NCBI GenBank assembly: GCA_021324735.1
Contig: JAJPIO010000014.1
Location: 1-64,000 of the forward strand
DNA from: Bacteroidota bacterium
GTDB lineage: Bacteria > Bacteroidota > Ignavibacteria > Palsa-1295
Length of the DNA: 64,000 nt
Reading direction: 5' to 3'
The position numbers were made by a program, and so were the translations under genes. The notes under the pieces are model-generated. The model searched no databases and had not been told where the DNA came from. It saw only the letters and a list, made by a program, of their open reading frames with translations. Within the stretch, counting starts at the first letter, position 1. Every line of letters begins with the position of its first letter. Positions 45,899-49,549 of the stretch are shown piece after piece.

Positions 45899-47035
45899 GT
45901 GAGCAATAATTTTACCGTTCGTCAAATATCCTCTAAGCGCGATAAGCTGCTTTTTGTAAGAATGATGTGGGATATCTATCGCGAGGATCCCCATTGGGTG
46001 CCGCCGCTGGAAATGGACCGAATGAAGCTTATCGATGAGAAGAAGAATCCCTTTTATTCTCATGCCGATGTTGGCTGGTGGTTGGCGGAACAGGACGGTA
46101 AACCGGTGGGACGCATTGCTGCGATCATCAATCATAATTACAACGAGGTCCAGAACGAACGAGCAGGTTTTGTCGGATTTTACGAGTCGGTGAACGACCA
46201 GAACGTAGCGTCAGCATTATTCAATGCTGCTGAAAATTTCATTCGTGAGAAGGGAATGACCGTTGCCTACGGCCCTGCCAATCCATCCTCGAATGACGAA
46301 TATGGTCTTCTCGTCGAAGGGTTCGATCGGCCGCCGGTGATGCTCATGACGTATAATCCGCCCTATTATGCTTCGCTCTTCGAACAGAACGGATATACCA
46401 AAGACCAGGACCTCTATGCGTACCTGATCTCACAAGAAACGGGGCGTTCGGATAAACTGGTGCGTGTTACCAAAGCTCTTGCCGAGCGCAATCAGATCAC
46501 GGTGCGCGCGATGAACCCAAAGAATTTTCAGGCAGAGGTCGACCGGATCAAGCATATCTATAATACGGCGTGGGAGAACCGTGGTTTTGTACCGTTCACC
46601 AATGAAGAAATGGATTTCCTTGCCAAAGACCTGAAACAGATCTACGATCCCGAACTCGTTCTTTTTGCTGAAATGAACGGCCAGACGGTTGGTTTTGCAC
46701 TGTCGCTGCCCGATATCAATCAAGCTTTTATTCAGGGTCGTCCTATTCCGCGCGGCATTGCTAATCTTCCGGTCGGGGTGTGGAAGTTACTGACGAAAAA
46801 GAAATCGATCGATACGCTGCGCGTGATCGTGCTCGGTGTGTTGCAGCAATATCGTAACCGCGGTGTCGATGCGATGCTCTATCTAGAGACGATGGAGCGG
46901 GCAGCAAAAAAAGGGTATCACTATGGTGAGGCTTCCTGGATACAGGAAACGAACACGCCGATGAACCGTGCTGCTCAAATGATGAATGGCGACCGGTACA
47001 AAACCTATCGCGTCTATAAAAAAGAACTACGATAG
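45899..47035 (+). CDS. GNAT/FemAB-like acyltransferase, stand-alone paralogue of the SPT fusion C-domain
   Basis: A 378-residue cytoplasmic protein that aligns along its whole length with residues 440-820 of the SPT fusion. Shared landmarks are [87 protein letters not shown] and GEASWIQETN. The central GVLQQYRNRGVDAMLY resembles the pyrophosphate-binding loop of GNAT enzymes. The substrate is unknown. The start is GTG, preceded by GAGGAG. Two copies of the domain, fused and free, suggest related but distinct acylation steps, which is inference. Confidence 0.85.
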   Translation: MSNNFTVRQISSKRDKLLFVRMMWDIYREDPHWVPPLEMDRMKLIDEKKNPFYSHADVGWWLAEQDGKPVGRIAAIINHNYNEVQNERAGFVGFYESVNDQNVASALFNAAENFIREKGMTVAYGPANPSSNDEYGLLVEGFDRPPVMLMTYNPPYYASLFEQNGYTKDQDLYAYLISQETGRSDKLVRVTKALAERNQITVRAMNPKNFQAEVDRIKHIYNTAWENRGFVPFTNEEMDFLAKDLKQIYDPELVLFAEMNGQTVGFALSLPDINQAFIQGRPIPRGIANLPVGVWKLLTKKKSIDTLRVIVLGVLQQYRNRGVDAMLYLETMERAAKKGYHYGEASWIQETNTPMNRAAQMMNGDRYKTYRVYKKELR

Positions 47036-47077: not shown

Positions 47078-47821
47078 ATGACCATCCCAGAGCTTGCAGA
47101 CCGCGTAAAATCGCGCGACCGACACGCCATCGCCCGAGCGATCACCACGATCGAAAATGACGACCAGTCAACGGGTCGCCTGTTGCGCGAACTGGCCTCG
47201 AAGTTGGGACATGCGTACCGCATCGGTATTACGGGGCCTCCCGGTGCCGGCAAATCAACACTTACATCGGAGTTAACGAAGCTCCTTCGCTCGAACGGAA
47301 AAACCGTCGGCATTATTGCTGTCGATCCTACATCGCCGTTTACGGGTGGTGCGTTGCTTGGTGATCGGATTCGTATGCAAGAAGTCTCGATGGACGAGGG
47401 AGTGTATGTCCGTTCCATGGCGACTCGCGGTTCACTGGGCGGTCTTTCCGCAAAAGCGAAAGATGCGGCAGATATTCTCGACGCTGCGGGGTTCGATTAT
47501 ATCCTGTTCGAAACGGTCGGCGTTGGACAATCGGAGCTCGATATTGCGAAAGCTGCCGATACAACGGTCGTGGTGCTTGTCCCTGAATCTGGAGATGCGG
47601 TTCAGGCGATGAAGTCCGGCCTAATGGAAATTGCCGATTTCTTTGTTGTGAATAAGAGCGATCGGGAAGGGGCAGACCAGGCTGTTCGAGCTCTCACGAC
47701 GATCCTTAGTTTTCGCGTTACGCATGCGGAAGATGAGTGGATCCCTGCGGTCATTAAAACGACTGCCAGCAAGAACGAAGGCATAGAAAATATGCTGCGC
47801 GAGATCGACAAGCATCGGTAG
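47078..47821 (+). CDS. meaB: MeaB/ArgK-type GTPase, ended by an in-frame TAG before its C-terminal domain
   Basis: The G-protein chaperone that loads and protects adenosylcobalamin in methylmalonyl-CoA mutase. The 247 residues up to the TAG contain an N-terminal helix and the P-loop GITGPPGAGKST (G53-S60). They also have AVDPTSPFTGGALLGDRIRM, TRGSLGGLS, the switch ETVGVGQSE and the NKSD base-recognition motif. Normal MeaB is about 320 residues. The missing C-terminal dimerisation helices are encoded in the same frame immediately after the TAG (47822-48037), so the gene has one nonsense codon. Other genes here end with TAG, so TAG is a true stop in this genome. Confidence 0.9.
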   Translation: MTIPELADRVKSRDRHAIARAITTIENDDQSTGRLLRELASKLGHAYRIGITGPPGAGKSTLTSELTKLLRSNGKTVGIIAVDPTSPFTGGALLGDRIRMQEVSMDEGVYVRSMATRGSLGGLSAKAKDAADILDAAGFDYILFETVGVGQSELDIAKAADTTVVVLVPESGDAVQAMKSGLMEIADFFVVNKSDREGADQAVRALTTILSFRVTHAEDEWIPAVIKTTASKNEGIENMLREIDKHR

Positions 47822-48037
47822 TATTTAGAAACGACCGGAAAACTTGCACTCCGCCGCAAGGCTCGCGAGCGTGAGCGAGTCCATGAGCTTATCGAAGACA
47901 TGTTGCGCATCGATTTTTGGACGCCGGCAAAATCCGCGTTGCTCGAAACGGAGCTGGACCGTGTAGCCCACCACGAAAAGACCAGTTTCGATCTTGCCCA
48001 CGAGCTTATTTCTGACATCAAGAGACAAGTTGCTTGA
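47822..48037 (+). pseudogene. Detached C-terminal domain of meaB
   Basis: It continues in frame after the TAG at 47819-47821 for 71 codons to TGA. It reads YLETTGKLALRRKARERERV and then helical HELIEDMLRI and DLAHELISDIKRQVA, the dimerisation arm typical of MeaB. It has no start of its own. With it, the gene would be 319 residues, the usual family length. Confidence 0.8.
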
Positions 48038-48126: not shown

Positions 48127-49140
48127 ATGGTGAAGCTCGGAAATTTAGAACTTGGCGAAAAGCTACTGCTTTTAGCCCCTATGGAGGATGTCACGGACAT
48201 TTCCTTCCGGCTTATCATGCGCGAGCGGGGTGCTGATGCTGTTTATACTGAATTCATTTCGAGCGAAGCGCTCATTCGAGATGCAGCGAAATCCAAGCAG
48301 AAACTGGTGACTTCTCCCAAGGAGCGGCCTGTTGCGATCCAAATTTATGGCGGCGATCCGGATGTCATGCGCGAAGCAGCGCAGATCTCCGAAGCGGCCA
48401 GCCCGGACTTTATTGACATCAATTGTGGCTGCTGGGTTAAGAATGTAGCGGGAAAGGGTGCCGGAGCCGGACTCCTTAAAGATCCTCCGCGAATGGAGCG
48501 AATGGTAAAAGCGGTCGTCGACGCGGTAAAACTTCCCGTGACCGTTAAGACTCGAATAGGTTGGGATCAAAACTCCATCAATATTCTCGAGATCGCTCCG
48601 ATGTTAGAGCAGGCTGGTGCCAAAGCGCTAACGATCCATTGCCGCACTCGCTCGCAAGGTCATAATGGCGAGGCCGATTGGACATGGATACCGCGTATTA
48701 AAGAGGTTGTGTCGATCCCTGTTTTCCTGAACGGTGATGTAAAGACTCCAGAGTCCGCCGAGCGTGCATTTCGCGAAACAGGATGTGACGGAGTAATGAT
48801 CGCCCGGGGCGCCATTACGAATCCCTTTATATTCCAGCAAATCAAACAACTTCGAGAAACGGGCGAGTACGTTCAGCCCAGCATTGCAGATCGCATCGAT
48901 CTTTGTGTTCGCCATCTTCGGCATTCGTGTGAGGTGCGAGGTGAAAAGCGTGGCGTGTTTGCATTTCGCAAGCATTATGCTGGGTATTTGCGAGAAGTGT
49001 ATGGCGGAGCACGTCTACGAGCTGAGTTAATGCAGATCGCAGAACTCGACCGTGTGATCGAACGGCTCGAGCACTTCAAGGAACATTTTGAACAGGATTC
49101 GGAGATCGATTCGCTCGTTGCGCTCTCGGTGGCTGCATAA
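48127..49140 (+). CDS. dusB: tRNA-dihydrouridine synthase DusB
   Basis: An FMN enzyme that reduces specific uridines in tRNA. The 337-residue TIM-barrel protein has LLLAPMEDVTDISFR, YTEFISSEALI and the catalytic Cys in INCGCWVKNV (usually GCP; Trp here replaces Pro). It continues with GKGAGAGLLKDP, TIHCRTRSQG, PVFLNGDVKTPE and GVMIARGA. A C-terminal helical tRNA-binding domain begins near residue 250. The GCW in place of GCP is a small oddity. It starts 89 bases after meaB, with a GGAG/CTCC hairpin in the gap. Confidence 0.95.
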   Translation: MVKLGNLELGEKLLLLAPMEDVTDISFRLIMRERGADAVYTEFISSEALIRDAAKSKQKLVTSPKERPVAIQIYGGDPDVMREAAQISEAASPDFIDINCGCWVKNVAGKGAGAGLLKDPPRMERMVKAVVDAVKLPVTVKTRIGWDQNSINILEIAPMLEQAGAKALTIHCRTRSQGHNGEADWTWIPRIKEVVSIPVFLNGDVKTPESAERAFRETGCDGVMIARGAITNPFIFQQIKQLRETGEYVQPSIADRIDLCVRHLRHSCEVRGEKRGVFAFRKHYAGYLREVYGGARLRAELMQIAELDRVIERLEHFKEHFEQDSEIDSLVALSVAA

Positions 49141-49549
49141 TACTATTTCGATTGCTTTTAGCACTTTCTCGATATTAGCTTTTGGAACTTTCCATTCTCA
49201 AAAAAAGTATGAATGCGGGACTCATTGCTTTTGATTTTTTAGCATTCTAACAGACTGCATTGCCAATGCAGTTAAACAAGAGTGATGCGTTCCAATGAGA
49301 TTCATCACCTTACTGTGCAATAACGACCTGCATTGCACAGATGCCTCTAAGACTCCTTCCTCCTGAGGCCATATTGTATCGAAGAGCATAGCTCTTTTTT
49401 ACGCTACCCTACAGAGGTTCTCTGTTACCGAAGCATACGGATAGGATCCTTGCTTTGTTCACTCGCCAATTGCGTTTTCCCTAAGTATGATACGAACTAA
49501 AATCTTTTTATACCCTTGCGAGGTGCATGTTCGCATGTGACGCTTAACC
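49141..49549. other. 409-base intergenic region with several hairpins
   Basis: No coding frame is seen. Perfect inverted repeats are ACTGCATT-gcc-AATGCAGT (49254-49272), CTGTGCAAT...ATTGCACAG (49313-49340) and ACAGAG-gtt-CTCTGT (49411-49425). AAGAGC-ata-GCTCTT plus a T-run (49382-49400) is the only terminator-like one. The first two share a TGCATTG/CAATGCA core. A non-coding RNA or multi-site operator is possible. Confidence 0.5.
49382..49400 (+). terminator. Short terminator-like hairpin
   Basis: AAGAGC-ata-GCTCTT followed by TTTT. The short 6-bp stem makes this weak. It may be an attenuator of the downstream GAF gene or the 3' end of a small RNA. Confidence 0.4.

Follow-up and report, generated by a model that had tools for sequence, protein, structure and literature searches.

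MeaB assists in the transfer of vitamin B12 to an enzyme that uses it, and the single meaB gene of the genome studied here, which belongs to an uncultured bacterium, is divided by a TAG codon lying in frame within it. This raises the question of whether the TAG is real, whether it is decoded, and what protein the gene would make. The window, by which we mean the whole stretch of 64,000 nucleotides that was analysed, carries meaB between a GNAT-domain protein gene and dusB (Table 1); the contig is number 11 of 19 in an assembly of 3.55 Mb with an estimated completeness of 100%. Translating positions 47078-48037 reproduced the layout given in the preliminary description: 247 codons, the TAG at 47819-47821, and 71 further codons up to a TGA, 319 positions in total. 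One MeaB copy was found in the genome, and a search for a second returned none. The interruption looks like an ordinary single-stop case, nothing points to a novel genetic mechanism, and with slightly better than even confidence we read it as a recent single-base nonsense mutation in the lineage's only meaB, present either as a strain or population variant or as a very young pseudogene.

Table 1. Features of the meaB locus (positions in the window) and mutase subunit genes elsewhere in the genome.
Feature	Position	Strand	Description
GNAT-domain protein, upstream neighbour of meaB	45899..47035	+	intact; TAG end 42 bases before meaB start
meaB, whole frame	47078-48037	+	247 codons, TAG, 71 codons, TGA; 319 positions
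meaB, first open part	47078..47821	+	247 codons, GTPase core, ends at TAG
In-frame TAG (codon 248)	47819..47821	+	variable position inside last helix of G domain
meaB, in-frame continuation	47822..48037	+	71 codons to TGA; rest of helix and C-terminal dimerisation arm, protein-level conservation kept
dusB (tRNA dihydrouridine synthase), downstream neighbour of meaB	48127..49140	+	intact
Mutase subunit L194	G000:C15:59611-61347		
Mutase subunit L185	G000:C15:247715-249289		
Mutase subunit L195	G000:C15:357156-357578		

The part upstream of the TAG is MeaB by its GTPase-core profiles, matching PF03308 (E 4.9e-87, 291.8 bits) and TIGR00750 (E 9.5e-93, 310.6 bits, above the cut-off of 240.75). When the TAG was read as a residue, the TIGR00750 score rose from 310.6 to 341.5 bits and the match reached residue 305; the 71-codon tail by itself passed no Pfam or NCBIfam threshold. 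The tail aligned without gaps at the TAG junction to the intact MeaB of every genus relative, and the read-through frame shared 69-81% of its residues with MeaB from relatives in the genus and family; judged from these alignments, homology of the tail to MeaB is beyond chance. Because the frame is gap-free across the TAG, one substitution suffices to account for it, without an indel. The TAG falls in a column that is variable across the whole MeaB family, and in genus and family relatives this codon is GAT, GAA, GCG, GCA, GCT, GCC or AAT. No second lesion is present in meaB. The whole frame is that of a standard member of the MeaB/MMAA family (PF03308, TIGR00750; 2QM8, 8DPB, 8GJU), but, unlike in that family, the TAG at codon 248 ends translation before the C-terminal dimerisation arm, which is encoded after the stop and, if the standard code applies, is missing from the protein.

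The read-through frame was modelled with AlphaFold2 (mean pLDDT 84), and the model gave TM-scores of 0.83 against 2QM8 and 0.84 against 8DPB. In this model, codon 248 lies within predicted helix 236-253, before the helix ends, and truncation would remove the remainder of that helix together with helices 255-280, 283-297 and 303-318. These last three helices correspond to the dimerisation arm in the structure model, in agreement with the literature and with the earlier assignment of the tail. In MMAA, the C-terminal arm serves both as a hinge and in the contact between subunits (PMC10356863). In MeaB, the nucleotide bound by one subunit is touched by D182, Q185 and K188 in switch III of its partner (PMC9974510). 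Upstream of the stop lie the P-loop, switches I-III and the NKSD and SKNEG motifs, and switch III includes D173, Q176 and K179, which are invariant in alignment A1 and equivalent to D182, Q185 and K188 of M. extorquens MeaB (constant offset of nine). Since each GTP site in characterised MeaB is completed by switch III residues from the partner subunit, a protein cut short here should work poorly or not at all, and loss of the arm should uncouple or abolish MeaB gatekeeping.

That every GTPase motif and all three switch III residues precede the stop also fits a different reading, in which selection maintains the 247-residue product as a genuine arm-less GTPase, working as a monomeric chaperone in the manner of the IcmF G domain. 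The IcmF G domain, to which the product here bears a remote similarity, works without the MeaB-type dimer (PMC9974510, PMC10356863); however, IcmF is fused to its mutase, whereas meaB here is a gene of its own, with relatives that have the arm. A stop placed inside a predicted helix argues against a selected arm-less form, which we consider unlikely.

The state of the tail bears on all of these readings. Between this genome and its genus relatives, dN over the post-TAG codons was 0.27-0.38, and the same stretch compared between intact genus members gave 0.24-0.41, one close pair aside. Only 2 of the 29 tail residues that are invariant in six relatives were changed here, both conservatively (V to I and R to K), and GC3 was 0.563 both before and after the stop. 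By these measures, the meaB tail is under the same protein-level constraint as elsewhere, or was until very recently. Because both divergence and GC3 indicate a tail that is still evolving as protein, the stop should be recent, decoded, or not real; no date can be put on the mutation, since these species are almost saturated at synonymous sites. An untranslated tail should decay, and this one does not, which counts further against a selected arm-less GTPase. Conservation of the tail would also be expected if the TAG were leaky and a small amount of full-length MeaB were made beside the short form.

TAG is an ordinary stop codon in this genome. The observation that it ends other genes held at larger scale, with 60 of 301 predicted genes (about 20%) ending in TAG over 384 kb. 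The suppressor tRNA suggested as a check in the preliminary description was sought among 46 tRNA genes typed by ARAGORN, none of which has a CTA anticodon. RF1 (538 bits) and RF2 are both intact. A search of the genome for PylS returned a single match of 21 bits against a cut-off of 178 bits, and most control genomes give such sub-threshold matches too, so that pyrrolysine decoding was rejected. Neither a CTA tRNA or a PylS above its cut-off nor a weakened RF1, the marks of UAG recoding, was thus found; reassignment of TAG, already judged unlikely from the window, is close to excluded by the intact RF1, the absent CTA tRNA and the share of genes that end in TAG.

The same findings weigh against a leaky TAG, as does the context of the stop. 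Some UAG readthrough does occur in E. coli (PMC11126739). The meaB stop is followed by T (TAG-T) and by a T-rich stretch, and both +4U and low G/high T downstream go with low readthrough (PMC5289835, PMC11126739), although the +4U effect is weaker for UAG than for UAA (PMC5289835). Stimulatory RNA structure was rejected, as the 120 nt downstream of the stop fold no better than shuffles (z-score -0.46), and genus relatives lack a stop at this position, so readthrough here is not a conserved device. Programmed readthrough is therefore poorly supported, with nothing in its favour, which does not prove zero readthrough; we hold a leaky TAG to be quite improbable. Translation could instead restart after the stop, giving MeaB as two assembling polypeptides, and the tail does contain an in-frame ATG (47900) and TTG (47903). 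The first of these candidate starts lies 27 codons past the stop, within the arm helix and far beyond coupling distance. As no start codon lies near the stop and nothing comparable occurs in relatives, restart was rejected and has only the faintest probability. Taken together, a selected short form, readthrough and restart account for about a fifth of our confidence.

The lesion is absent from orthologs, as in a young pseudogene: MeaB is uninterrupted in all six other species of the genus, at 75-80% identity. A class-wide search found a strong MeaB ortholog (E at most 1e-60) in 185 of 294 genomes, and among the matches listed (the stronger ones, about 185 genomes) nearly all of the orthologs run without a stop. 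Ten rows flagged as containing an internal stop, from at most 12 genomes including G027 and G036, were read, and in each the stop marked the natural C-terminus, near residue 311-319. None of the class orthologs that were read ends near residue 247 except that of G250, which is cut by the end of its contig; recurrent truncation of MeaB in the class was rejected on these grounds, and a functional truncated MeaB GTPase was seen in no other genome read. The broader proposal that the short form is selected, either because the species has shed the arm and relies on a G-protein chaperone that is monomeric, or because a leaky TAG fixes the ratio of short to full-length protein, is an improbable one.

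The main rival to a nonsense mutation is that, in what is a metagenome-type assembly, the TAG reflects an error in the consensus or the assembler's choice of a minority allele, and that most cells have a sense codon and make ordinary MeaB. A pristine, conserved tail, the absence of a second lesion and an intact pathway are the expected look of such an error, one base is enough to produce it, and MAGs with the labels Candidatus Kapaibacterium, Ignavibacteriae or Bacteroidetes bacterium are the closest named relatives. Against it stands the quality of the surrounding sequence. When 856 in-frame stop junctions in 384 kb were ranked by how strongly both flanks looked like coding sequence, the meaB TAG headed the list, with no equally strong candidate; most of the next-ranked junctions, not each of which was checked, had a start codon soon after the stop, as in adjacent genes. 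In addition, 27 genes of four genus relatives matched 19 stretches of this genome, and 23 of these genes were clean, the other four being the relatives' meaB. Generally poor sequence was rejected, as meaB alone was interrupted among the 19 homologous stretches. Because no comparable interruption turned up in the sampled sequence, the sampled assembly is not error-rich, which lowers the probability of an error without removing it; we regard an error as a possible but tentative explanation.

The mutase genes, which the preliminary description had proposed to check, comprise two methylmalonyl-CoA mutase large subunits (TIGR00641) and a free B12-binding subunit, all of them open, and the genes for methylmalonyl-CoA epimerase and cobalamin adenosyltransferase are open as well. 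The AdoCbl-dependent mutase that is cognate to a MeaB is thus encoded in the genome. The intact mutase, B12 subunit, epimerase and adenosyltransferase indicate that the client pathway is not decaying, and this, like the absent second lesion, was counted against a nonsense mutation. MeaB was not found in G008 (same family, 96% complete) or G052 (95%), in both of which the mutase large subunits are present, nor in the family members G009 and G010 (both 67% complete), although these too have both mutase large subunits. The group may therefore tolerate the loss of MeaB; missing contigs could also explain the absence.

We nonetheless favour the nonsense mutation because a single TAG without an indel interrupts the one meaB while six genus members are intact; because tail dN lies in the range of intact pairs, with few changes at invariant residues and equal GC3; because TAG is a normal stop here, with both release factors intact and no CTA tRNA; and because meaB alone is interrupted in the sampled sequence, while MeaB loss seems tolerated in G008 and G052. 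We infer that the cells do carry this base, that the mutation happened recently and that the protein no longer functions. A single-base nonsense mutation would recently have arisen in the only meaB, ribosomes would stop at the TAG at 47819 to release a 247-residue GTPase core without its dimerisation arm, and this truncated MeaB would control the delivery of adenosylcobalamin to methylmalonyl-CoA mutase poorly or not at all. The locus shares with young bacterial pseudogenes formed by a single nonsense substitution the one point lesion, the conserved remainder and the intact orthologs in sister species, but differs in that the TAG may be a polymorphism or an error rather than fixed. Of the four options first raised for this gene, recent pseudogenisation and an assembly or population variant remain, whereas readthrough has gained no positive support and a truncated GTPase is unseen elsewhere. 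If the base is real, the genome would offer a natural arm-less MeaB alongside an intact mutase, with near relatives that seemingly lack MeaB but keep the mutase, and would let one see, on a small scale and in nature, to what extent the chaperone is required; if it is not, the case cautions that a single-base stop in an assembled genome should be backed by reads before anything is built on it.

The neighbourhood of meaB, with the GNAT gene and dusB, is matched in stretches taken from genus relatives. The roughly 400 bases that follow dusB (49141-49549) contain no ORF of at least 100 residues. The mutase consists of two free large subunits, whose genes are distant from each other, and of a B12-binding subunit of 140 residues that is likewise separate; none of the three is encoded near meaB.
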